A stretch of DNA of 64,000 bases, taken from positions 44,357 to 108,356 of IMG/VR virus record IMGVR_UViG_3300025778_000010; one strand, written 5' to 3'. A program made the translations under genes and the position numbers. Below the pieces are notes generated by a model, which was not told where the DNA came from, made no database searches, and saw only the letters and a program-made list of their open reading frames with translations. Of the stretch, positions 12,099 to 58,692 are shown piece after piece. Source of the stretch: a virus. The stretch's first letter is position 1. Each line of letters begins with the position of its first letter.

Positions 12099-12127
12099 TT
12101 GAAAATGTCAGTGGTGTGTGTTATAGT
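12099..12127 (+). promoter_or_regulatory. early promoter with ATGTCAG spacer element
   Basis: TTGAAA at 12099-12104, 17-nt spacer beginning ATGTCAGTGG, then TATAGT at 12122-12127 preceded by TGT. First of a series of similar promoters on this strand. Confidence 0.65.
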
Positions 12128-12423: not shown

Positions 12424-12464
12424 CGGCGTGTCGAGTTGATTTTGTCAGCCCTATCTGATAGACT
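12424..12464 (+). promoter_or_regulatory. cassette repeat copy with promoter
   Basis: CGGCGTGTCGAGTTGAT (12424-12440) is a copy of the dispersed repeat and supplies the -35 TTGATT (12436-12441). A 17-nt spacer containing TTGTCAGCCCTATCTGA leads to TAGACT at 12459-12464. Confidence 0.65.
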
Positions 12465-12509
12465 TCCAGTCATACAAATTAAATAAAGAAAAATCCTAGT
12501 TGAGCCTCT

Positions 12510-12561
12510 GAGCCTTAGCAAATAATCCGAAAGGTGAGCCTAAGCAAATAAGAGCAAATAA
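12510..12561 (+). repeat. leader direct repeats GAGCCTWAGCAAATAA
   Basis: Two copies of GAGCCTWAGCAAATAA (12510-12525, 12536-12551) and a truncated third, GAGCAAATAA (12552-12561), in the 5' leader of the next gene. They are followed by a 9-bp inverted repeat (ATAGATAAA/TTTATCTAT, 12578-12598). May be a regulator or RNA-protein site. Confidence 0.55.
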
Positions 12562-12619
12562 CACTAGGCAAGGAAAGATAGATAAAAGGTTTATCTATAA
12601 AAAAAGAAAGGTGACTAAT

Positions 12620-12766
12620 ATGTCATACTCATTCGATAATAATAATAAAGACCGTTGGTCAGAACTAGCAGACAATTATCAATCAATGCTAGATGAACTA
12701 GCAGAATCAGAATCAGAATCTGTATTTATCCCCGTACCTGCGTTTGATGTAGACGAGGTGCTCTAA
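12620..12766 (+). CDS. small acidic protein
   Basis: 48 residues (MSYSFDNNNKDRWSELADNY at the start), acidic, behind AAAGAAAGGTGACT. Its stop overlaps the next ATG (TAATG). Unrecognised. Confidence 0.65.
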   Translation: MSYSFDNNNKDRWSELADNYQSMLDELAESESESVFIPVPAFDVDEVL

Positions 12767-12870
12767 TGACTATAAATAGTTTAACTCTCATTTCACTATT
12801 GCTAGTGTCGTACCTATCTGCTAAACTACTAACCGATAAAGAATGGGGAAAGAATAAAAATGAAAACTAA
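12766..12870 (+). CDS. small single-pass membrane peptide
   Basis: 34 residues with a hydrophobic segment LTLISLLLVSYLSAKLL followed by a charged tail. Start and stop overlap its neighbours (TAATG before, 11 nt after). May be a short membrane effector; unrecognised. Confidence 0.55.
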   Translation: MTINSLTLISLLLVSYLSAKLLTDKEWGKNKNEN

Positions 12871-13066
12871 GATTATCGTACTAGGATTAGCACTCGCTCT
12901 AATTCCCGCCGTTGCTAACGCTCGTGGCACAAGCCATCATTCTTATAGCCTGTCTAGTGTAGGTCGCTACACTTATCACTATCACAAGCCTAGCCATATC
13001 TATTGCCCATATCAAGGCTGTAAAAAATCGTTCTCTAGTTTCACTAGCACTAGTGGCGGAAACTAA
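12860..13066 (+). CDS. small secreted protein
   Basis: 68 residues. Clear Sec signal (MKTKIIVLGLALALIPAVANA), then a short His/Tyr/Ser-rich mature part with a CPYQGCKKSF pair of cysteines. Exported, possibly metal binding. Start site GGGGAAAGAATAAAA. No family recognised; a secreted early phage protein could alter the cell envelope. Confidence 0.7.
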   Translation: MKTKIIVLGLALALIPAVANARGTSHHSYSLSSVGRYTYHYHKPSHIYCPYQGCKKSFSSFTSTSGGN

Positions 13067-13088
13067 TGTCAGTGGTCTATGGTAGACT
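13060..13088 (+). promoter_or_regulatory. early promoter, weak -35, ATGTCAGTGG spacer
   Basis: ATGTCAGTGG at 13066, then TAGACT at 13083-13088 at the same 11-nt distance as in the sister promoters. It overlaps the stop codon of the secreted-protein gene. Confidence 0.55.
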
Positions 13089-13123
13089 ACTATTAACAAC
13101 AACAAGAAAAGGAAAATAAATAA

Positions 13124-13288
13124 ATGACAATCGAAAATCGTACTTACCAAATCGGTGACCTATTCACCACACAACGCTCAAAGGTAACAGGAACAATTAA
13201 GGAAATTGTAAATGTAAAGCCTAACCAATCTCGTGTGAAGTTGGAAGTTGACGGCAAAGACCGCTGGACAACTGTCACAATCAAGTAA
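13124..13288 (+). CDS. small beta-barrel-like protein, paralogue A
   Basis: 54 residues. Shares TYQIGDLFTT and KVTGTI with the next gene, so the two are a tandem duplication. The pattern fits a small SH3-like or KOW-like barrel (G-D-x-F-T-T, then V-T-G-x-I). Starts behind AAGAAAAGGAAA. Confidence 0.65.
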   Translation: MTIENRTYQIGDLFTTQRSKVTGTIKEIVNVKPNQSRVKLEVDGKDRWTTVTIK

Positions 13289-13289
13289 A

Positions 13290-13308
13290 GTTTAGCAAAT
13301 CGCTAAAC
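13290..13308 (+). other. intergenic hairpin
   Basis: GTTTAGC-AAATC-GCTAAAC, a perfect 7-bp stem directly after the stop codon, followed by a second small hairpin (CGAC/GTCG). No U-run, so more likely mRNA stabiliser or attenuator than terminator. Confidence 0.5.
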
Positions 13309-13367
13309 GACCTGAGCAAGTCGGAAAAAGGCTCAACTAATACCCAACAAAGAAAAGGAAAAAAAGA

Positions 13368-13538
13368 ATGACACTACACGGATACACTTATCAAATCGGA
13401 GATTTATTCACCACATCAAAGACAGGCGTAACTGGACGAATTAACTCGTTCTCTCCTGTATCAAATAAAGTAACTCGTGTTGGTCTAACTTTAGCAAATG
13501 GCTCAAAGCGTATTGCTATGGTAAAGACAACGAAGTAA
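13368..13538 (+). CDS. small beta-barrel-like protein, paralogue B
   Basis: 56 residues; YTYQIGDLFTT at residues 6-16 and GVTGRI at 20-25 match paralogue A. It is basic (ends MVKTTK). Same leader sequence AACAAAGAAAAGGAA. Unknown function. Confidence 0.65.
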   Translation: MTLHGYTYQIGDLFTTSKTGVTGRINSFSPVSNKVTRVGLTLANGSKRIAMVKTTK

Positions 13539-13551
13539 AAATAAAATAAGT

Positions 13552-13591
13552 TTAGGCGGGACTGCACACTAATAACGACACTCCCGCCTAA
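13552..13591 (+). terminator. long-loop hairpin
   Basis: TTAGGCGGGA (13552-13561) pairs perfectly with TCCCGCCTAA (13582-13591) across a 20-nt loop, followed by TTCACAAAA. Lies between the paralogue B gene and the next gene; weak terminator or attenuator. Confidence 0.5.
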
Positions 13592-13619
13592 TTCACAAAA
13601 CACGAAAGGAAAACTAATT

Positions 13620-13802
13620 ATGTCAATGTCACGCAAGGACTATGTTTCAACCGCTGAAATTATTAATTCTTATGCTTCAGAAATTAAACTCGAAGTGCTA
13701 GAAGATCTAGTAAATGATTTCATCGAAATGTTCGCATCAGATAACGAGCGATTCAATAGCGATAGATTTTGGGACGAGTGTTTTAAAAACACAAATCACT
13801 AA
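13620..13802 (+). CDS. small acidic helical protein
   Basis: 60 residues, mostly acidic helix (EIINSYASEIKLEVLEDLVNDF). Of a general type common as early gene in actinophages; function unknown. Last gene before a strong terminator. Confidence 0.65.
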   Translation: MSMSRKDYVSTAEIINSYASEIKLEVLEDLVNDFIEMFASDNERFNSDRFWDECFKNTNH

Positions 13803-13816
13803 ATAAAAATAAAAGC

Positions 13817-13851
13817 TTAGGCGTAGCAAAATTGCTACGCCTAATTTTATT
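13817..13851 (+). terminator. strong rho-independent terminator
   Basis: 13-bp perfect stem TTAGGCGTAGCAA/TTGCTACGCCTAA followed by TTTTATT. Ends the first early unit and isolates the region with the DnaA boxes. Confidence 0.9.
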
Positions 13852-13869
13852 AAAAAATAAAAAAAAATA

Positions 13870-13910
13870 ACGGCGTGTCGGCTTGACAAAGCCGAGCCGA
13901 GGGGCTGGCC
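13870..13910 (+). repeat. cassette repeat copy
   Basis: CGGCGTGTCGGCTTGACA (13870-13887) followed by GGGCTGGCCC (13901-13910). Member of the dispersed repeat family of the 12-20 kb region. Confidence 0.75.
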
Positions 13911-13958
13911 CAAAAAATCGGACATTTACGGCATTTAAGACATTCGATATACACAGAT

Positions 13959-13979
13959 TTATCCACAAGCTGTGGATTA
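13959..13979. other. inverted DnaA boxes, candidate origin element
   Basis: TTATCCACA at 13959-13967 is an exact bacterial DnaA box. After 3 nt comes TGTGGATTA (13971-13979), the inverse of a one-mismatch box. Flanked by AT-rich DNA. Confidence 0.6.
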
Positions 13980-14008
13980 TTGTTCATCTTAAATTAACCT
14001 AAAACTTA

Positions 14009-14048
14009 CGGCGTGTCGCTTGATTTTTTCGATTTTATCTGATAAACT
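14009..14048 (+). promoter_or_regulatory. cassette repeat with promoter
   Basis: CGGCGTGTCGCTTGATT carries the -35 TTGATT (14020-14025); a 17-nt spacer ending TTTTATCTGA leads to TAAACT at 14043-14048. Confidence 0.6.
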
Positions 14049-14081
14049 TCCAGTTATAAAATTAAATAAAGATATAAAAAA

Positions 14082-14097
14082 TGTGATGTACTTCACA
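14082..14097. promoter_or_regulatory. CRP/GlxR-type operator
   Basis: TGTGATGTACTTCACA is a perfect match to TGTGA-N6-TCACA (GlxR form TGTGANNTANNTCACA). It lies about 34 nt downstream of the 14043 -10 element and upstream of the 14207 gene. Confidence 0.65.
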
Positions 14098-14206
14098 AAG
14101 TACACGCTCCAAATATTGAGACTACTCCCCAGTATACTCGATAGTAGCGAAAAAGTATGTTAAACTAGCGATAGTTAAACAGTTAAAAAAGAAAGGTGGT
14201 CATAAA

Positions 14207-14506
14207 ATGGCTACACTAGAAGTAAAAGTAAATGATAGTTTTGTTCCGCTTGAGTATGCTCCAAGCGATGTAAAGATTTCTCTTGAGTGGGCGTTAATGA
14301 ATAATGCTCCAATGGTAGTAAAATCCACTACCCCCGCCGTTGTTCGTGTTTGCAAAGTTTGCGAATATGCACACGAAGGTTTGTATTGCACAAATTGTTT
14401 CACGGGTGAGCGTGTAAATTGCTCCCCTGCTGGCAAGTTTAATAAATGGTCAAAAGTGATGCGAATCACACCAACTACTTGCAACAAATCTCGGCGTGTC
14501 GCCTAG
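14207..14506 (+). CDS. zinc-binding early protein
   Basis: 99 residues. C-terminal half has CKVCEYAHEGLYCTNC and another Cys (VNCSP), a probable zinc knuckle. The last codons (KSRRVA) are formed by a copy of the dispersed GGCGTGTCG repeat, so the repeat has been absorbed into coding sequence. Strong site AAAGAAAGGTGG. Unknown function. Confidence 0.75.
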   Translation: MATLEVKVNDSFVPLEYAPSDVKISLEWALMNNAPMVVKSTTPAVVRVCKVCEYAHEGLYCTNCFTGERVNCSPAGKFNKWSKVMRITPTTCNKSRRVA

Positions 14507-14532
14507 ATAATGTCAGTATAATCTGATATAAT
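14492..14532 (+). promoter_or_regulatory. cassette repeat with promoter
   Basis: CGGCGTGTCG directly followed by TAGATA (-35, 14504-14509), ATGTCAG spacer of 17 nt, TATAAT at 14527-14532 preceded by TGA. Overlaps the end of the 14207 gene. Confidence 0.7.
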
Positions 14533-14566
14533 TCCAACTATCAACAAAAAGAAAGGTGGCAACTTA

Positions 14567-14791
14567 ATGCTAATCTCAGAAGCCTTAGAAGGCAAATATG
14601 TAAAGTCCTCAAAAGGACAAGGCATAATCCAATATGCAGATTTCCGAAAGGATATGCACCACTCTACCCCTGAGGGTTATCTTGCTTATGCTTGCAAGGT
14701 TCGCCCTACTTATAACCCTGAAGTGCATAAGTTTATTCCAGAAGATTTCTGGACAACAATTTATGTCGGATTGGATAGTGAATTACTATGA
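14567..14791 (+). CDS. small early protein, unknown
   Basis: 74 residues, AAAGAAAGGTGGC upstream. The start MLISEALEGKYVKSSKGQGIIQ suggests a small barrel. Ends in a 4-nt overlap with the next start. Not recognised. Confidence 0.7.
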   Translation: MLISEALEGKYVKSSKGQGIIQYADFRKDMHHSTPEGYLAYACKVRPTYNPEVHKFIPEDFWTTIYVGLDSELL

Positions 14792-14994
14792 CAATTAAAA
14801 TTGGTGGGCTAGGGCAGACAATTTCTGCCTATTGCCCAGTATGCTCTCAAAAGATGACCCATATGTGTATCGCTACACTTGGAACGGGTAAAACAATTCG
14901 CTATGAGTGGCAATGCCAGCCTTGCGAATTATCTCTAAAGTCTGACTCAACAGGCTATGCTCATCTACTCACAGAAATGGCTTACTATGTCTGA
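14788..14994 (+). CDS. zinc-ribbon early protein
   Basis: 68 residues with CPVC near residue 16 and CQPC near residue 47, a classic two-knuckle zinc ribbon. Overlaps both neighbours. May be an adaptor for host polymerase or nuclease; no direct evidence. Confidence 0.7.
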   Translation: MTIKIGGLGQTISAYCPVCSQKMTHMCIATLGTGKTIRYEWQCQPCELSLKSDSTGYAHLLTEMAYYV

Positions 14995-15103
14995 TAAAAT
15001 TTTCATATGTGATGAATGTGATACCCTTGCCACAATGTCAGTGCAAGGTGATACAATAACTATAAATAAATGTAAGTGCTTAACTTTAGAATGGAGCAAC
15101 TAA
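14987..15103 (+). CDS. mini zinc-ribbon with embedded promoter
   Basis: 38 residues: CDEC near residue 8 and CKC near residue 29. The ATGTCAGTG promoter element at 15035 lies inside the frame. Starts 8 nt before the end of the previous gene and ends TAATG into the next. Confidence 0.55.
   Translation: MSDKIFICDECDTLATMSVQGDTITINKCKCLTLEWSN
15029..15057 (+). promoter_or_regulatory. embedded early promoter
   Basis: ATGTCAGTGCAAGGTGA then TACAAT (15052-15057), same spacing as sister promoters. It would transcribe the 15103 gene from inside the mini zinc-ribbon gene. Confidence 0.5.
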
Positions 15104-15309
15104 TGTACAAAATTACAACAACCTATGACGGAAATCCCGTCCCACACTCTATTCACTCTTATGCTGATGCACTTGATGCGTTTGACTCGTTTGGTCGTTG
15201 CACCGATTGGGGATTTGCAGATGAATATGCAACCTACAATTTAACTTTACCTGATGGAAAAATGTACACAAAGATTTTTTATCGTAGCGGAAAAGTTGGT
15301 GGAAAGTAA
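15103..15309 (+). CDS. small early protein, unknown
   Basis: 68 residues starting MYKITTTYDGNPVP; the ATG shares a base with the upstream stop (TAATG). Alternative upstream starts at 15091 or 15076 lack a ribosome binding site. The product is beta-rich with a Tyr/Asp-rich middle. Confidence 0.65.
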   Translation: MYKITTTYDGNPVPHSIHSYADALDAFDSFGRCTDWGFADEYATYNLTLPDGKMYTKIFYRSGKVGGK

Positions 15310-15389
15310 TGGCAACAACAATTCACCTTGGCGGAATAGAATCAGAATGTGAGAAGTGTCGTGAAATTGCGGGAGAAAATAATGAATAA
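15309..15389 (+). CDS. mini peptide with CxxC
   Basis: 26 residues with CEKC near the centre, coupled to both neighbours (TAATG before, 8-nt overlap after). Probably translated because of the coupling; function unknown. Confidence 0.45.
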   Translation: MATTIHLGGIESECEKCREIAGENNE

Positions 15390-15492
15390 AGTAAATCGTG
15401 TTCAAGAGTTGCGGAGATCAAATGCTGCAACTCCAATTCGTAACAAGAAAAAATATACACGTAAAAATAAATATAAAAATAAATTTGAATAA
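15382..15492 (+). CDS. very basic small peptide
   Basis: 36 residues, with Lys/Arg/Asn-rich second half. Likely binds nucleic acid or ribosomes. Overlaps the end of the mini CxxC gene. Last gene before a cassette repeat. Confidence 0.5.
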   Translation: MNKVNRVQELRRSNAATPIRNKKKYTRKNKYKNKFE

Positions 15493-15516
15493 ATATTTAT
15501 AACATTGCATAGCTAT

Positions 15517-15561
15517 GCGACACGCCCGAGTGCGGCTGGCCCCTGTCAACTCGACACGCCG
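15517..15561. repeat. cassette repeat, inverted arrangement
   Basis: GCGACACGCC (15517), CGGCTGGCCCC (15533-15543), then TGTCAACTCGACACGCCG (15544-15561), the reverse complement of the usual GGCGTGTCGAGTTGACA unit. Followed by ATTACGGGG and a TGTGATTTTAATC half-operator (15571). Confidence 0.75.
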
Positions 15562-15606
15562 ATTACGGGGTGTGATTTTAATCTCCCAAATACTGGCGGG
15601 TACAAC

Positions 15607-15635
15607 TAGATAATGTCAGTGGGTTCTGCTATACT
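15607..15635 (+). promoter_or_regulatory. early promoter
   Basis: TAGATA (15607-15612), 17-nt spacer ATGTCAGTGGGTTCTGC, TATACT (15630-15635) with TGC extension. Confidence 0.7.
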
Positions 15636-15665
15636 TCCGATATCAAGAAAAGAAAGGGGCATTAA

Positions 15666-15893
15666 ATGTCTACTGTTGCCACATATTGCAAAGATTGCAA
15701 TAAGCGTTTATCTGATATTTCAGTATATGACGCTCCCTATACTTCCGATTCTACTTGCTGGGAGTGTATCTTCAAGTCCTGCGATAACTGCTATGGTCAA
15801 GGAATTACTGGATGGGTATCTCCAGATGGTGATTTTGATTTTGATTATTGCGAGTGCAACCCACTTTGCCTAACACTAGAAGAGGTCAAATAA
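15666..15893 (+). CDS. cysteine-rich zinc-binding early protein
   Basis: 75 residues with YCKDCNK, TCWEC, SCDNCYGQG and YCECNP: a DnaJ-like CxxCxGxG-type zinc finger array. Start site AAGAAAGGGGC. The central CDNCYGQG motif suggests protein or RNA binding. Shares a base with the next start. Confidence 0.75.
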   Translation: MSTVATYCKDCNKRLSDISVYDAPYTSDSTCWECIFKSCDNCYGQGITGWVSPDGDFDFDYCECNPLCLTLEEVK

Positions 15894-16084
15894 TGACTAA
15901 TGAAACTATTTTTGAAGTAGCCTGCCTATACTATGAAGTATGCGGTACAAGCGAAGTATTCTACTCTGAAGAAGAGTATGATATCTATGGCGATGATTAT
16001 GTCTGCCCTGAGTGCTATTATCAGATGGCGGAAATGGAGTCTGATTCCTTCCCGCTATCTTTAGAATATGATGAGGGGGAATAA
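15893..16084 (+). CDS. small acidic cysteine-containing protein
   Basis: 63 residues beginning MTNETIFEVACLYYEVCG; very acidic, with CPEC near residue 43. The ATG overlaps the upstream stop. Probable zinc ribbon, function unknown. Confidence 0.65.
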   Translation: MTNETIFEVACLYYEVCGTSEVFYSEEEYDIYGDDYVCPECYYQMAEMESDSFPLSLEYDEGE

Positions 16085-16218
16085 TGTCTGACAAGTCTGC
16101 TCAAGATCTATTTAATGAAATGGATACCCTTTGGGATAATTTCAAGAAAGCCACATGGCAAATGTCAGTGGTGCCTGCTACAATAACATCCTTAACCCAA
16201 CCAAAGAATGGAAACTAA
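16084..16218 (+). CDS. small early peptide with embedded promoter
   Basis: 44 residues (MSDKSAQDLFNEMDTLWDNF at the start). The second half is read from the ATGTCAGTGG promoter element. Coupled to the upstream gene by TAATG. May be only a carrier of the promoter. Confidence 0.5.
   Translation: MSDKSAQDLFNEMDTLWDNFKKATWQMSVVPATITSLTQPKNGN
16156..16184 (+). promoter_or_regulatory. embedded early promoter
   Basis: TGGCAA (16156-16161), ATGTCAGTGGTGCCTGC spacer, TACAAT (16179-16184). Confidence 0.55.
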
Positions 16219-16219
16219 C

Positions 16220-16693
16220 ATGACAACAACCCTAACCCGTGGCGAAGCCAAAGATACAATTGATTTCGCAATTGAACAATTTATCAACGAGATTGAAGTC
16301 TCTGATGATATGCTATTAACGATTACCTATGCCGTAAATAATGACTTGCAGATTCGTGATTACTTCCTTGGGCTCCCGTCCGATTATGGTATGCAGGTAT
16401 GCGTTGATTTTGTCAACTATCTTTCACGAGTAACTAATGCACGAGAAGGATATGCATATGACACAATTTCTGCAATGTATCATATTGAACAAGGCAACAC
16501 AGACTTGGCTAAGTCTCTGCTAGAAATTGCAGAAAAAAATAATCCTGATTATAATCTCATGAAACTTGCGAAGAGAATTCTTTCAGCAGGTTGGCCAGGT
16601 TCCGAATTAACTAGAATGCGTAATGAATTGCATTCTTCAGTTGTGGATACTATCACCGAAGAGCCAAATATTTTAATTGAAGAGGTGGCGTAA
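16220..16693 (+). CDS. DUF4192-like C-terminal domain protein
   Basis: 157 residues from ATG 16220 (GGAAAC upstream); an alternative start 12 nt earlier exists. Helical, with a pattern like the C-terminal part of the actinobacterial DUF4192 family: AMYHIEQGNTDLAKSLLEIAEKNNPDYNL, then LAKRILSAGWPG. The N-terminal DUF4192 core is absent. This relationship is tentative and the function is unknown even for the family. Confidence 0.65.
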   Translation: MTTTLTRGEAKDTIDFAIEQFINEIEVSDDMLLTITYAVNNDLQIRDYFLGLPSDYGMQVCVDFVNYLSRVTNAREGYAYDTISAMYHIEQGNTDLAKSLLEIAEKNNPDYNLMKLAKRILSAGWPGSELTRMRNELHSSVVDTITEEPNILIEEVA

Positions 16694-16851
16694 TGTCAGC
16701 ACCATATGCAACAATTAACGGCGTTGAGGTTCATGAGGACCTCAACGGCTATGCCGTGGTCATGAAGAATGGCAAGGTAATTAAAAAGTATACCAACTCA
16801 AGAGAAGACGCATTAGGCAAAGCAATGCACTATGCACAGGAGATTAAATAA
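16693..16851 (+). CDS. small early protein
   Basis: 52 residues (MSAPYATINGVEVHEDLNGY at the start), one-base overlaps or abutment on both sides. A beta-hairpin then helix; unrecognised. Confidence 0.6.
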   Translation: MSAPYATINGVEVHEDLNGYAVVMKNGKVIKKYTNSREDALGKAMHYAQEIK

Positions 16852-17067
16852 ATGGCAAAGCATCCACCAGTCAACAGTGCACAATGGCATTCTGTATTTG
16901 CAGATGATCAATGCAAAATTTATCAAGACGGTAACGATGATATTTTTTTCAAGGTCATGATCAAGGGCCAACGTGTTAAATATTTTTATAATGAAACAGC
17001 TCATAGCGACGTTGCACGTTACTGCAGCGACGAGCTTGGAATTAGCTATTGGTCCGTATTAAATTAA
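16852..17067 (+). CDS. small early protein
   Basis: 71 residues, basic and aromatic (WHSVFADDQCKIYQDG). Directly follows the previous gene. Unrecognised. Confidence 0.65.
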   Translation: MAKHPPVNSAQWHSVFADDQCKIYQDGNDDIFFKVMIKGQRVKYFYNETAHSDVARYCSDELGISYWSVLN

Positions 17068-17089
17068 TTTAACTTGGGTGGGGAATAAA

Positions 17090-17179
17090 ATGCAAGCGGT
17101 AGCATATGTATTGGTCTATGGATCTGCATTCGCTATCGCATGCATTTTTTATTTTATATTTTCTAAAAAAGATTTTTAA
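17090..17179 (+). CDS. 29-residue membrane peptide
   Basis: MQAVAYVLVYGSAFAIACIF, a single hydrophobic span with a short KKDF tail, after GGTGGGGAATAAA. Possible membrane effector; too short for family assignment. Confidence 0.5.
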   Translation: MQAVAYVLVYGSAFAIACIFYFIFSKKDF

Positions 17180-17181
17180 AT

Positions 17182-17240
17182 GCGGTGTGTCGAGTTGACA
17201 ACCGTTGATTTTTGGGCTGGCCCGTCAAGCCGACACGCCG
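17182..17240. repeat. cassette repeat, full palindromic copy
   Basis: GCGGTGTGTCGAGTTGACA on the left, GGGCTGGCCC in the middle, and GTCAAGCCGACACGCCG on the right form an imperfect palindrome with about 17-nt arms. The most complete copy of the family. Confidence 0.8.
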
Positions 17241-17249
17241 TTTACGGGG

Positions 17250-17265
17250 CGTGATTTTAATCACA
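17250..17265. promoter_or_regulatory. CRP/GlxR-type operator
   Basis: CGTGATTTTAATCACA, a near-perfect palindrome (GTGATT/AATCAC), next to TTTACGGGG and 64 nt upstream of the DUF932 gene's -35. Confidence 0.55.
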
Positions 17266-17328
17266 TGGAATGGGCGGGGACAAAACGGACATATCAGACA
17301 AATCATTATTTAACTTAGGCTTTACGGG

Positions 17329-17358
17329 TAGACAGATGTCAGCCTTATCTGCTAGAAT
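17329..17358 (+). promoter_or_regulatory. promoter of the DUF932 gene
   Basis: TAGACA (17329-17334), 18-nt spacer with ATGTCAGCCTTATCTGC, TAGAAT (17353-17358). Confidence 0.65.
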
Positions 17359-17389
17359 AGGCATACATTAACAGAAAGAAGGAAAAAAT

Positions 17390-18430
17390 ATGACTAACCC
17401 AATGTCACAGGTTCATCGCTCAGAAGTTGAGGATGGTTCTGTATCTCTTGCTGTATCACTTCGCACAAATCCTGCATGGCACTCTTTTGCTAACAAGGTA
17501 TTTGCTAAGGATGAGCAAGTCACAACCGCACAAATGCTAGATGCTGCTAAACTCTCAAATTGGAATGTTTCTCTTGAGTCTGTTTCAGATTTATTGCCAG
17601 ACAACTATGATTCTGTTAGCGAGAATTTTTTGGTTGTTCGTGATAACCCTTACACAGCAGGACAAAAAGATGTTCTCTCAGTTGTAGGCTCACGCTATAA
17701 GGCTGTTCAGAATGAAGAACTCTTTTCTTTTGCAGATAACCTACATGATGGAAACCCTGATGTAAATTGGGAAAGTGCAGGTTCTCTAAAGAATGGTCGT
17801 GTTGTATTTGGCACAATGTCAATTCCCCGCACTATGGTTCTTGACCCTAATGGTGCTAATGACACTACCAATCTTTATCTCGTAGTTTACACTTCACACG
17901 ATGGTTCAGTTGCGGTTCAATCTGCAATTACCCCTGTTCGTGTTATGTGTCAAAACACTCTTAATTTCGCTATGCGTAAGGCTAAGCAATCTTTCAAGAT
18001 TCGCCACACTCAGACAGTAGATGGAAAAATTGCTGCTGCTCGTGAGACTCTAGGTCTAACTCTTGCGTACATGGATGAATTCGAAACACAAGCAAAAGAA
18101 CTTTTCTCTCGTGAAGTGACAAATGCTAAGTTTAGCGAAATCATTAACAAGATGTATCCTAAGCCAGAGGCAGATGTTAAGGGTTCAATCAAGAAGTGGG
18201 AAAACAAGGTTGTTCTGCTTGATGACCTTTACCATAACTCTCCTACTAATGCTAATATCAAGGGTACAGCATGGGGCGTTGTAAATGCTCTAACCGAACG
18301 CCTTGATTACTATCGCACAGCCCGCAAGGGAAACAGCGATTCGCTAATGGCAGGTGCAAGCGGATTTGACCCTGTTATCACAGCAGAAAAAAATAAAATT
18401 GTTAAGCAGGTTCTTGCACTTACCGCTTAA
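17390..18430 (+). CDS. DUF932 family phage/plasmid protein
   Basis: 346 residues, the largest early protein. Typical DUF932 features: PAWHSFANKVF (the conserved W-H region), ENFLVVRDNPYT, VVGSRYKAVQNEELFSFADNL, and TPVRVMCQNTLNFAM, followed by a helical C-terminal half. Members are abundant in phages and plasmids, sometimes near replication or recombination genes; the biochemical function is unknown. Single-gene unit with its own promoter, followed by a hairpin and tRNA-Asp. Probably highly expressed given its cassette. Confidence 0.9.
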   Translation: MTNPMSQVHRSEVEDGSVSLAVSLRTNPAWHSFANKVFAKDEQVTTAQMLDAAKLSNWNVSLESVSDLLPDNYDSVSENFLVVRDNPYTAGQKDVLSVVGSRYKAVQNEELFSFADNLHDGNPDVNWESAGSLKNGRVVFGTMSIPRTMVLDPNGANDTTNLYLVVYTSHDGSVAVQSAITPVRVMCQNTLNFAMRKAKQSFKIRHTQTVDGKIAAARETLGLTLAYMDEFETQAKELFSREVTNAKFSEIINKMYPKPEADVKGSIKKWENKVVLLDDLYHNSPTNANIKGTAWGVVNALTERLDYYRTARKGNSDSLMAGASGFDPVITAEKNKIVKQVLALTA

Positions 18431-18436
18431 TAAATT

Positions 18437-18458
18437 GTGAGGGGCGAAAGCCCCTCAC
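18437..18458 (+). terminator. hairpin after the DUF932 gene
   Basis: GTGAGGGGC-GAAA-GCCCCTCAC, 9-bp stem with a GNRA tetraloop, ending 7 nt before the tRNA. Little U-run follows (CTCTCTT), so it may be a processing or attenuation signal allowing tRNA read-through. Confidence 0.65.
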
Positions 18459-18465
18459 CTCTCTT

Positions 18466-18539
18466 GATTCCATAGATCAATTGGTTAGATCGCTACCCTG
18501 TCACGGTAGAGGTTGCGGGTTCAAGTCCCGTTGGAATCG
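18466..18539 (+). tRNA. tRNA-Asp (GTC)
   Basis: 74 nt, complete cloverleaf: acceptor GATTCCA/TGGAATC, anticodon loop CTGTCAC with GTC at 18500-18502, T-arm GCGGG-TTCAAGT-CCCGT. Only tRNA on the plus strand and set apart from the other five. Confidence 0.95.
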
Positions 18540-18559
18540 CAAAGTTTAAATGGTCATCA

Positions 18560-18601
18560 CGGCGTGTCGAGTTGACAAAACAGCTGGGGCGGGCTGGCCC
18601 C
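18560..18601 (+). repeat. cassette repeat copy
   Basis: CGGCGTGTCGAGTTGACA (18560-18577) and GGGCTGGCCCC (18591-18601). Followed by TTTACGG and a TGTGATTATAAACACA operator-like site (18632-18647). Confidence 0.8.
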
Positions 18602-18631
18602 ATAAAATCCATAATGTCAAGTCTTTACGGA

Positions 18632-18647
18632 TGTGATTATAAACACA
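18632..18647. promoter_or_regulatory. CRP/GlxR-like site
   Basis: TGTGATTATAAACACA, one mismatch from TGTGA-N6-TCACA, flanked by TTTACGGA on both sides. Confidence 0.5.
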
Positions 18648-18689
18648 TTTACGGATGACCGATATGTCCGATTTGTCTGCGTGTCTAAA

Positions 18690-18718
18690 TTGATTACTCA
18701 TGGGTAACTTGCTATAAT
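18690..18718 (+). promoter_or_regulatory. promoter, probably leaderless
   Basis: TTGATT (18690-18695), 17-nt spacer, TGC-TATAAT (18713-18718), only 8 nt before the ATG at 18727; no ribosome binding site. Confidence 0.7.
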
Positions 18719-18726
18719 ACTCACCT

Positions 18727-19368
18727 ATGGAAAATGTAAAAGAAACTTGGTTCAAATGGGATTATGTATGCCCAAATTGCGATGCACATATTGAGATGAC
18801 TATTAAATCTAATGGTCATCCACATAGCGAGATTTGTTCTAAATGCTATGAGCGTCTAACTCTGATGTCAGTGGTAGATGCTACAATATACCCAACTCAA
18901 AAGAAAGAAGAACAAACTATGGAAACAACAATCGCTGAACTTTATAACCCAAATATGTTGGTTACATATAAGAAGATTACTGATGGTAATACTGAATATA
19001 TTACTGATAAGGTAACTGATATTGAGTGGGCTCTTGCTCAATCCCGCCGTAACTATGAGAGCCTTACAGAGCAACAAAATAATTGGTATCTCAAAGAGTC
19101 AAAACTACGCACTTTGCTAAATGATGTATTTCACGATTCAGAAGACCAAGACACACTTGAAAAAATTGCTGATATTTTTGATGTTCCACTAACTAAGGAA
19201 ATCGAAGTAACCGCTTGGGTCAATGTCAATATGACTATCGAAGTTGATATGCGTGAAGGCGAATATGATGTTGAAGACCTTGTTCGCAATAATCTCACAG
19301 TAGATGCCTATGGTGGAGAAATCACAGTTCACGACTTTGATGTAGACCGAGTAGAGGAGCAATACTAA
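18727..19368 (+). CDS. zinc-ribbon fused to acidic domain
   Basis: 213 residues. Residues 15-40 form a zinc ribbon (CPNC, CSKC). A promoter element (ATGTCAGTGG, 18865) sits inside the frame, and Met65 (18919) follows AAAGAAAGAAG, so two products are likely: full length and a 149-residue C-terminal form (METTIAELYNPNM). The latter ends in a beta domain with alternating acidic residues (ITVHDFDVDRVEEQY). In sister units the zinc-ribbon gene and the following gene are separate, so this may be an in-frame fusion. Confidence 0.7.
   Translation: MENVKETWFKWDYVCPNCDAHIEMTIKSNGHPHSEICSKCYERLTLMSVVDATIYPTQKKEEQTMETTIAELYNPNMLVTYKKITDGNTEYITDKVTDIEWALAQSRRNYESLTEQQNNWYLKESKLRTLLNDVFHDSEDQDTLEKIADIFDVPLTKEIEVTAWVNVNMTIEVDMREGEYDVEDLVRNNLTVDAYGGEITVHDFDVDRVEEQY
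18859..18887 (+). promoter_or_regulatory. promoter inside the fused gene
   Basis: ATGTCAGTGGTAGATGC spacer then TACAAT (18882-18887); drives translation from Met65 of the fusion. Confidence 0.55.
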
Positions 19369-19640
19369 TGGCAGTAGCAGTTATTGAAGTCCCGTCCCCT
19401 GCTCGTATGGCGAACGGGATTAGCAAATGCCTAACCGCTGGAATTGAATATGAGATGCTGGGTGGGATGCAGGTAGAGATTACTTGTGCTGATGAGATGA
19501 AGTTAGCTAGAATAATTACAGCCTTTGGCGGTAAAATCCTAAGTGCTTTTAATCATAAACCAATCACACCAGATGCCCCTAAGCACGAAGTCCAATATGC
19601 TAGGACACATAGACCAATTCAGACACGCCGAAAGAATTGA
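19368..19640 (+). CDS. small early protein
   Basis: 90 residues (MAVAVIEVPSPARMANGISK), coupled to the previous gene. The last residues (IQTRRKN) again derive from a degenerate GACACGCCG repeat half (19622-19630). Unrecognised. Confidence 0.65.
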   Translation: MAVAVIEVPSPARMANGISKCLTAGIEYEMLGGMQVEITCADEMKLARIITAFGGKILSAFNHKPITPDAPKHEVQYARTHRPIQTRRKN

Positions 19641-19666
19641 CATAAGCACCCCGCTTGTGTTAGAAT
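19637..19666 (+). promoter_or_regulatory. promoter
   Basis: TTGACA (19637-19642), 18-nt spacer, TAGAAT (19661-19666). Lacks the ATGTCAG element. Confidence 0.75.
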
Positions 19667-32203: not shown

Positions 32204-32504
32204 GAATTTTCTTTAACTGACTCCATATTTCTGGGTCTTTGTGTGAGTTATTTTGTTTATCTATACGACCTAAGTCCATAAAAATACCGCCTCGTACACC
32301 AAACTCTTTATTTGCTACACCTTCTTTATGACATTGTTTAATTACTGGACAATGTAAACAAACTTGATCAATTTGTTTGGCAAGCTCTTTATCTGATTCA
32401 TAATCATCATAAAACCAATTAATTGACATATTTGTGCATGCTGCAAGGTGATACCATTTGATATCAACTTCATCAATTCCTAAATGACTAAATAAACCTG
32501 GCAT
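32178..32504 (-). CDS. WhiB-like Fe-S regulator
   Basis: 108 residues from ATG 32504 (GGTTAGCGATAAG upstream; a GTG at 32531 adds 9 residues). WhiB core: CTN, then CLHCPVIKQC, with CxxC-x5-C and the preceding Cys making four cysteines for a [4Fe-4S] cluster, and GVRGGIFM, the tryptophan/Gly turn equivalent. The family is restricted to Actinobacteria and their phages. Phage WhiB proteins can modulate host WhiB-dependent transcription or superinfection exclusion. Confidence 0.9.
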   Translation of the reverse strand: MPGLFSHLGIDEVDIKWYHLAACTNMSINWFYDDYESDKELAKQIDQVCLHCPVIKQCHKEGVANKEFGVRGGIFMDLGRIDKQNNSHKDPEIWSQLKKIHGKNILHS

Positions 32505-57820: not shown

Positions 57821-57879
57821 CAGATGGGGCTTCACATGAAGCGGGATTTGAAACCCTCTTATATATAATTTTCCATCTG
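57821..57879 (-). other. structured leader RNA element
   Basis: CAGATGG (57821-57827) pairs with CCATCTG (57873-57879), enclosing GCTTCACATGAAGC (57829-57842), and a GGG..CCC pair (57843-57856): a three-way junction in the 5' leader of the holin-like gene, on either strand. Confidence 0.5.
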
Positions 57880-57888
57880 TTTCTCTGA

Positions 57889-58692
57889 TTAGACAGAGAA
57901 TAGTTTTCCATCTACTACACAAGTGTAGTTAGGTGAAATTTCCACAATCTGCACGTGAGGATGATTACCATTCTCAATAGTTGCGACTGCGAAACCCTTT
58001 TGCCAGTTATGGTTTTGAGTGTACTTCATGCCGTCACTCTTTTCATCACACATATGCCCAATTTCGTATCCTCGAATTGTTCTTCCGCCCGTTGCAACTG
58101 GCAACTCATATGTTTGGAAATGTGAAGCAATTCTGTGTGAATGTCCTCTGATCAATGAAATCTGTAAATCATCAATATCTTTTCTTACAGCACCTGTGTC
58201 TGCAATTGAAAGGCCATGATGTACGTGAATGTCTCCAAAACGATGTCTAGGCAACTCGTTATAATATATATAATCATACCCAAGTGAATCTAGTGACCAT
58301 AGGGATTCTGGTGTAATATCTTGAAGATACTCTGGTAGCTTTTTATCTAGGTAATCAAAAATTCTAATATCGTGGTTTCCTAATGCTGAAAATAATTGTG
58401 CATTAGGCAAAATCTCTCTAGTCTTAGTATAAAAATCTCTAGCACCCTTTGCTTCATGTCGCATCATAGGAACAATAAGATCTTTGCTATCATTTTTGTG
58501 AAGTTGAAGAAACTCTGCTGAACGTCCTTCGGTATATTTGCTGTAACACGCTTGGTCATCTGTATCGCCAAGATAATCTACAACGTCTGGCTTCATCCAT
58601 TTCATTACCTTAAACCAAAGTTCGATGGCCTTGTCATCTTGATACGGGAATTGCTGATCAGATGATAGCATCCATTTTAAATCGTTACTCAT
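57889..58692 (-). CDS. calcineurin-like metallophosphoesterase
   Basis: 267 residues. SSDQQFPYQ (first Asp), DYLGDTDDQ (GDxxD), GNHDIR (near residue 124), HVHHG, GHSHR are the classical metallophosphoesterase motifs, full set. Acts on phosphodiesters; substrates could be nucleic acid ends, cyclic nucleotides or sugar phosphates. Ends in the region with a terminator-like TTCTCTG/CAGAGAA hairpin. Confidence 0.9.
   Translation of the reverse strand: MSNDLKWMLSSDQQFPYQDDKAIELWFKVMKWMKPDVVDYLGDTDDQACYSKYTEGRSAEFLQLHKNDSKDLIVPMMRHEAKGARDFYTKTREILPNAQLFSALGNHDIRIFDYLDKKLPEYLQDITPESLWSLDSLGYDYIYYNELPRHRFGDIHVHHGLSIADTGAVRKDIDDLQISLIRGHSHRIASHFQTYELPVATGGRTIRGYEIGHMCDEKSDGMKYTQNHNWQKGFAVATIENGNHPHVQIVEISPNYTCVVDGKLFSV

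Follow-up and report, generated by a model that had tools for sequence, protein, structure and literature searches.

A dispersed decamer repeat in an uncultured freshwater phage: probable punctuation of small early transcription units

The repeat and its genomic setting

The window analyzed here is a 64,000 nt stretch of phage DNA (bases 44357–108356 of the 108,356 in IMG/VR record IMGVR_UViG_3300025778_000010) containing a short dispersed repeat, the subject of this work, whose copies cluster in a block of small genes surrounding a DUF932 gene (17390–18430). The DNA polymerase of this phage has its nearest relatives in the Streptomyces cluster BE phages (57% identity to that of BillNye), and the phage is related to this cluster (Stanwilliamsviridae). 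The repeat-bearing group is a large set of uncultured freshwater viruses, whose hosts are probably actinobacteria. As a preliminary description of the window had noted, the repeat is GC-rich in AT-rich surroundings, the G+C content of the window being 36.4%.

A search with the 18-mer CGGCGTGTCGAGTTGACA, allowing up to three mismatches, retrieved six matches in the window and none in 100 dinucleotide shuffles, confirming that the repeat family is real and excluding chance. The stable part of the 18-mer is the 10-mer core CGGCGTGTCG (hereafter the decamer), usually followed two bases downstream by TTGACA. Exact decamers, of the form (C/G/A)GG(C/T)GTGTCG, start at 12424, 13871, 14009, 14492, 17183 (a CGGT variant) and 18560 on the + strand and occupy 15518–15527, 15552–15561 and 17231–17240 on the − strand, while an inverted copy matching at 9 of 10 positions lies at about 19621–19630. 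The TTGACA originally attributed to the copies is exact only at 13871, 15544 (− strand), 17183 and 18560; the hexamer at 12424, 14009 and 14492 is TTGATT, TTGATT and TAGATA, respectively, with a −10 sequence 17 bp beyond each. These last three copies are short forms, whereas the coding-strand copies at 13871, 17183 and 18560 are long forms, as is that at 15561 (with 17240) on the opposite strand. The block GGGCTGGCCC, described as a frequent companion, indeed matches perfectly at 13902, 17214 and 18591 and has a single mismatch at 15533. Two long palindromes had been proposed from inverted arms; the only true one is that at 17183–17240, since the decamers at 15518 and 15552 are direct repeats, both on the − strand. 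The copies do lie outside genes or at their very end, including the two reported coding tails: the stop codon of gene 14207–14506 falls within the copy at 14492, and gene 19368–19640 ends over the partial copy at 19622.

All the decamer copies of this 108-kb phage are confined to one 7-kb early region, and we found no further occurrence of the GGCGTGTCGNNTTGA form outside this region in the whole 108-kb genome. Likewise, the decamer is restricted to a few kilobases in eight other long records (107–120 kb). Cultured BE phages carry a DUF932 relative at two places per listed record, the left copy within the first 2.7 kb, inside the direct terminal repeat; these terminal repeats span around 11 kb and 20–25 genes (PMC5764925). 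Because of this location of the DUF932 relative, the repeat block of the window probably corresponds to the terminal repeat of BE phages, although the record shows a single copy only.

The decamer family in related viruses

The exact 18-mer is carried by 32 IMG/VR stretches, while GC or CC variants of it are present in at least 120. These motif-selected loci were supplemented with 80 loci chosen via the DUF932 protein alone, of which 79 were new. Related genomes do not lack the repeat, as 78 of these 79 independently found loci contain at least one copy of CGGYGTGTCG, and 61 at least three (median, 4). There were 297 copies of CGGCGTGTCG in the 79 loci, compared to a mean of 1.0 and a maximum of 32 in 40 permutations; in the pooled set of 230 related loci, part of which was found with the motif itself, there were 719 decamers, compared to a mean of 1.7 and a maximum of 12 in 60 letter permutations. 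The decamer family is thus common to the relatives, and enriched in them.

Long forms and RNA hairpins

The long form consists of decamer-NN-TTGACA, without a −10 sequence, and is followed in the relatives by two hairpins. On the coding strand it often begins shortly after genes, at 15 nt or less past the stop codon in 41% of cases and at 60 nt or less in 50%; in the window, the copy at 17183 begins 4 nt past the stop of the open reading frame 17078–17179. For 220 long forms we found 223 promoter motifs 80–260 nt downstream, i.e., a stem-loop and then a promoter in one intergenic gap, as in the promoter early stem-loop (PeSL) cassettes discussed below.

Hairpin 1 is formed by CGNNTT from the repeat paired with a downstream AANNCG or AANNTG, in which NN is free and matches its partner (AC/GT, AG/CT, AT/AT, CC/GG, GC/GC). 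This is also seen among close relatives with the same flanks, with CC..GG in L003, GC..GC in L336 and AC..GT in L324. Full NN pairing occurred in 104 of 151 distinct coding-strand elements, versus 47.6 ± 4.4 when the downstream parts were swapped (200 swaps, maximum 60), and in 48 of 82 elements from a non-redundant coding-strand set, versus 23.7 ± 3.4 expected; on the non-coding strand it was found in 5 of 34, versus 6.7 expected. Elements of type B, with a GGACAT site directly after (n = 35), showed no excess (17 paired versus 17.4), so the two-hairpin elements are those to which the covariation is tied. In an alignment of 32 sequences from a single loop class, chosen only for TTGACAAAA and blind to pairing, covariation was 0.227, versus 0.142 ± 0.013 for shuffles and at most 0.100 for slid structures, and one pair appeared as GC, CG and AU. 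Additionally, the fold z-score was −1.95 for the coding strand (n = 76) versus −0.38 for the antisense (n = 25). A DNA cruciform would be indifferent to the coding strand, whereas the covariation is found on the coding strand only; selection therefore likely acts on the RNA of the long form. Here a fixed DNA word constrains an RNA stem and leaves covariation to the free bases alone, a signal missed by ordinary scans for repeats or terminators.

Hairpin 2 has the form CCC...GGG, with variable loops. In the window, hairpin 1 is perfect at 13871, the copy at 18560 has a GGGGC/GCCCC stem, and 17183–17240 forms one long palindrome. The block GGGCTGGCCC resembles AGCTGGCCC, which lies at the junction of both hairpins in the relatives, and it appears to be a weak local counterpart of this junction.

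Short forms and promoters

The short form consists of the decamer, usually two bases, TTGAYW, 17 bases and TANNNT, and only this form shows the fixed spacing to −35 and −10 sequences of a sigma-70-type promoter. In 97 of 1,536 distinct promoter motifs (TGTCRG-N10-TANNNT) from the relatives, the decamer occupies the fixed place directly upstream of the −35, and in 91 of the 97 closest cases it lies 18–19 nt ahead of the TGTCRG box; in 333 motifs a decamer is found 25–250 bases upstream. This fixed spacing, together with the intergenic placement and the conservation in relatives, supports the regulatory element envisaged in the preliminary description, whose interpretation as a whole is partly supported and which overlooked the RNA hairpins and the split between promoter and terminator forms. 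Early promoters at window positions 12106, 13067, 15036, 16163 and 18866, among others, also contain TGTCAG exactly 10 bp ahead of an extended −10 (TGNTANNNT), as a spacer motif beside the usual −35.

Neighbouring sites and features of the window

The DnaA box TTATCCACA was present in 270 copies in the 79 DUF932-selected loci (permutation mean 16.8), and the CRP/GlxR-like palindrome TGTGA-N6-TCACA in 366 (mean 20.0; the permutation maximum equals the observed value, as the identical motif was drawn among the permutations). There were also 135 copies of ATCGGACAT (mean 10.8; one permutation reached 63) and 141 of TCGGGCGTGTCG (mean 0.0). The intergenic cassettes are thus strongly enriched in DnaA boxes and in CRP/GlxR-like palindromes (loci L276–L352; window positions 13959, 14082, 17250 and 18632), which suggests that these phages read host regulators of replication and catabolite response. 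A second shared site, GACAAATCGGACAT, putatively regulatory, occurs in 83 copies in the freshwater loci, in the window at 13919, 17286 and 18664, and twice in the BE phage Karimac (at 4.5 kb, L385:4499–4512, and at 123.8 kb), which fits one copy per terminal repeat.

Table 1. Positions of the repeat copies and of associated features in the window.
Feature	Position	Strand	Details
Short (promoter) form	12424..12464	+	Decamer 12424–12433; −35 TTGATT 12436–12441; 17-bp spacer with TGTCAG 12443–12448; −10 TAGACT 12459–12464; spacing fits the family rule
Long form	13871..13911	+	Decamer 13871–13880; TTGACA 13883–13888; hairpin 1 arms 13879–13884/13889–13894 (CGGCTT-GACA-AAGCCG); GGGCTGGCCC 13902–13911
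CGGACAT site, recurrent module adjoining the repeat	13919..13925	+	
DnaA-box-like inverted pair	13959..13977	+	TTATCCACA-AGC-TGTGGAT
Short (promoter) form	14009..14048	+	Decamer 14009–14018; −35 TTGATT 14020–14025; −10 TAAACT 14043–14048
CRP/GlxR-like palindrome	14082..14097	+	TGTGATGTACTTCACA
Short (promoter) form overlapping end of gene 14207–14506	14492..14532	+	Decamer 14492–14501; −35 TAGATA 14504–14509; −10 TATAAT 14527–14532
Long form, non-coding strand	15518..15561	−	CGGCGTGTCGAGTTGACA 15544–15561; second decamer GGGCGTGTCG 15518–15527; CGGCTGGCCC (top strand) 15533–15542
CRP-like site and promoter	15571..15635	+	CRP-like site 15571–15585; TAGATA-17-TATACT 15607–15635
Long form, both arms	17183..17240	+	CGGTGTGTCGAGTTGACA 17183–17200 (+); GGGCTGGCCC 17214–17223; CGGCGTGTCGGCTTGACG 17223–17240 (−); fold −29.5 kcal/mol
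CRP-like site, CGGACAT and promoter for DUF932 gene 17390–18430	17250..17358	+	CRP-like site 17250–17265; CGGACAT 17286–17292; TAGACA-18-TAGAAT 17329–17358
tRNA-Asp ahead of 18560 copy	18466..18540	+	
Long form, 20 nt past tRNA	18560..18602	+	Decamer 18560–18569; TTGACA 18572–18577; GC hairpin GGGGC-GGGCTG-GCCCC 18586–18601; GGGCTGGCCC 18591–18600
CRP-like site, inverted CGGACAT and promoter	18632..18718	+	CRP-like site 18632–18647; CGGACAT 18664–18670; TTGATT-17-TATAAT 18690–18718
Partial inverted decamer (9/10) at end of gene 19368–19640, then promoter	19621..19666	+	TTGACA-18-TAGAAT 19637–19666
WhiB-like gene, candidate partner of the promoter form	32283..32456	−	G000:76639–76812; 37.6 bits, over cut-off

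Elsewhere in the window, gene families were matched for glutathione peroxidase, RecA, Hsp20, Cpn10, a ferritin-like protein and an NAD-dependent epimerase, and ARAGORN predicted, at 57832–57925 (−), a tRNA-like gene of undetermined isotype whose anticodon has four bases (ctaa).

Interpretation and alternative explanations

We interpret the repeats, with a probability of around 0.7, as cassettes that punctuate the small early transcription units in an uncultured phage clade with cluster BE as its relatives. A typical cassette would start at a stop codon or tRNA end with decamer-NN-TTGACA, the RNA of which would provide the 5′ arm of hairpin 1; this would be followed by the second GC hairpin, by DnaA-like and CRP/GlxR-like sites of host type and by the phage-typical GGACAT site, and the cassette would end with an extended −10 promoter (TTGAYW-N17-TANNNT, its spacer containing TGTCRG), a subset repeating the decamer two bases ahead of the −35. 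The hairpins would most likely serve as U-poor terminators, or as 3′ ends insulating adjacent units, whereas the decamer as DNA would most likely be a site for an activator or other regulator working beside sigma region 4. U-poor hairpins have been discussed for actinobacteria. If correct, this makes the grammar of transcription units readable in a large, uncultured group of freshwater phages.

Several observations weigh against this interpretation. A T run follows the hairpin in only 7 of 186 cases, so that, of the two features of an intrinsic terminator, the GC hairpin at the gene 3′ end is present and the U tract after the stem is not; classical intrinsic termination is not supported. Around one fifth of the long forms lie on the non-coding strand, with no excess of pairing, and the copies of the window form a diverged subtype whose second hairpin is weak. 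Lastly, a MAFFT/RNAalifold analysis with mixed loop lengths recovered only the invariant TGTC...GACA pairs and no covariation, because the 3′ arms misalign across mixed loop classes; that alignment was replaced by the anchored counts and the single loop class presented above. A search of the region against Rfam retrieved no known RNA family, as only the tRNA reached the gathering score.

The strongest competitor, to which we give somewhat less than even odds, is that a DNA-binding protein of the phage uses decamer-NN-TTGACA as its operator and represses or blocks transcription at many sites, in the manner of the stoperators of cluster A mycobacteriophages, the hairpins being secondary. It would account for the rigidity of the two blocks around a free spacer of 2 bp, for copies on both strands, often 43 or 49 bp apart when on the same strand, and for the invariant TGTC-N5-GACA dyad of the long form. 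However, it leaves unexplained why NN covaries with downstream bases on the coding strand only, and the second half of the dyad is lost in the promoter copies of the decamer (TTGATA/TTGATT). A further reading, which we regard as rather unlikely, is that a phage factor, such as the WhiB-like (Wbl) protein with sigma A, recognizes decamer-TTGACA as DNA at both ends of each early unit. At starts the word would be an activator site beside the −35; at ends it would act as a roadblock or make the polymerase pause, and its RNA would there also retain the ability to fold into a terminator hairpin; one word would then mark start and stop, both as DNA and as RNA. Wbl proteins such as WhiB7 and WhiB3 act beside sigma region 4 (PMC10245118), and, if the factor were the phage Wbl protein, the cassettes would represent a native, multi-copy target set for poorly understood regulators.

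The preliminary description raised the possibility of a mobile or recombination-spread element. Flank-matched gaps contain many indels and module changes between conserved flanks, so module turnover is real; inverted decamers bound units of about 110 bp, and one phage contains a near-identical pair of copies (L020 and the overlapping locus L179). Nevertheless, orthologous positions usually retain the element, whose hairpin evolves there through compensating changes, and elements at matched positions diverge together with their flanks. Copies were not significantly more alike within than between genomes (0.695 versus 0.677 ± 0.013), i.e., there is no overall within-genome homogenization, and among the flank-matched gaps listed we saw no clean empty site with target duplication, as would be expected of a transposon or a miniature inverted-repeat transposable element (MITE). 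Spread by recombination is possible and general mobility is not supported; it is rather unlikely that the repeats are MITE-like or PeSL-like mobile cassettes with the decamer as a boundary for module exchange.

It is more doubtful still that the decamer is a host WhiA/WhiB site, for which the phage would borrow WhiA or supply WhiB. The decamer, directly upstream of the −35, contains GTGTC, the reverse complement of the WhiA core GACAC (PMC3781837); WhiA acts jointly with WhiB (PMC3781837, PMC4850268), and the phage has a WhiB gene (Table 1). Additionally, NlpC/P60 genes of Kribbella and Nocardioidaceae repeatedly have the 16-mer TGTCAAGYCGACACGC upstream, but this site is oppositely oriented and GACAC is very short. 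Moreover, the site is not enriched in an order of small-genome actinobacteria that may or may not hold the host: none of 121 genomes contained CGGCGTGTCGNNTTGA, and GTGTCGNNTTGACA occurred three times, versus once for the control, in 101 genomes.

Scanning chromosomes with the 16-mer mostly retrieved chance matches; the others were an unconnected repeat of Lentzea (GGGTGTCAACTCGAC..GTCGAGTTGACACCC) and the Propionibacteriales site upstream of NlpC/P60 genes. The latter is a conserved block resembling ATTACA-N4-TGTRGTTTGTCAASYCGACACGC, ahead of RipA-like NlpC/P60 genes of Kribbella and Nocardioidaceae (L039, L043, L044, L047, L052, L072, L088, L097, L105, L111 and L126), and is possibly the site of a cell-division regulator. 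In Lentzea chromosomes the palindrome GGGTGTCAACTCGACGAAAAGCGTGTCGAGTTGACACCCC, followed by a conserved tail, is repeated many times (L051, L053, L058, L062, L064 and other Lentzea loci) and looks like a MITE-type family.

Least probable of all is an antitermination RNA, comparable to HK022 put, or another structured regulatory RNA instead of a terminator. The presence of two neighbouring hairpins, of which hairpin 1 has a conserved 5′ arm and shows covariation, would suit it, but the element is located between a stop codon and the promoter that comes next rather than in a 5′ leader, and has no Rfam match.

Comparison with known systems

We found no description of the decamer family in the open-licence papers searched, and whole-cassette comparisons with the DNA of cultured phages gave only short chance matches. 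Among actinophages, the start-associated sequences (SAS) and extended SAS (ESAS) of cluster K mycobacteriophages (PMC3203893) are likewise short conserved repeats, some with inverted repeats, dispersed beside a subset of genes; however, SAS is a 13-bp sequence, GGGATAGGAGCCC, at translation starts (PMC3203893), whereas the decamer family has another sequence and is found at −35 positions and after stops. The 17-bp dyad repeats of cluster O (PMC4351075) and the stoperators of cluster A are also numerous dispersed sites, presumed to bind protein, although those of cluster O are symmetric and mostly not tied to promoters (PMC4351075), unlike the decamer family, with its fixed −35 spacing and RNA covariation.

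The nearest known kind is the PeSL cassette of T4-like phages (Arbiol 2010 and Comeau 2014, cited in PMC4503421). Both families repeat, in the gaps between small early genes, a terminator stem-loop (here a probable one) together with an early promoter. The cassettes described here differ in sharing the decamer between hairpin arm and promoter and in adding DnaA- and CRP-like sites, and, compared to the module shuffling reported for PeSL, they show turnover between flanks and no homogenization. PeSL also belong to T4-like myoviruses, with a T4-type early promoter, whereas our phage is related to the siphophages of Streptomyces cluster BE (PMC5764925), probably with hosts in another phylum.

The cultured BE phages themselves offer a parallel in layout. 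The decamer is absent from the left ends of Karimac (MH590599) and BillNye, but most intergenic gaps of the Karimac terminal repeat contain, after the stop, a GC hairpin with a UUCG loop, the decamer GCCGCCCCGG or its reverse complement, and an extended −10 such as TCTGTTAGACT. A stop codon, a GC hairpin, a GC-rich decamer that is conserved and can face either way, and an extended −10 promoter are thus common to both, as is GACAAATCGGACAT, whereas in Karimac the decamer is a different one, the loop is UUCG and the decamer follows the hairpin instead of being part of its 5′ arm. The freshwater phages and the cultured Streptomyces BE phages would then use the same layout, written with other words.

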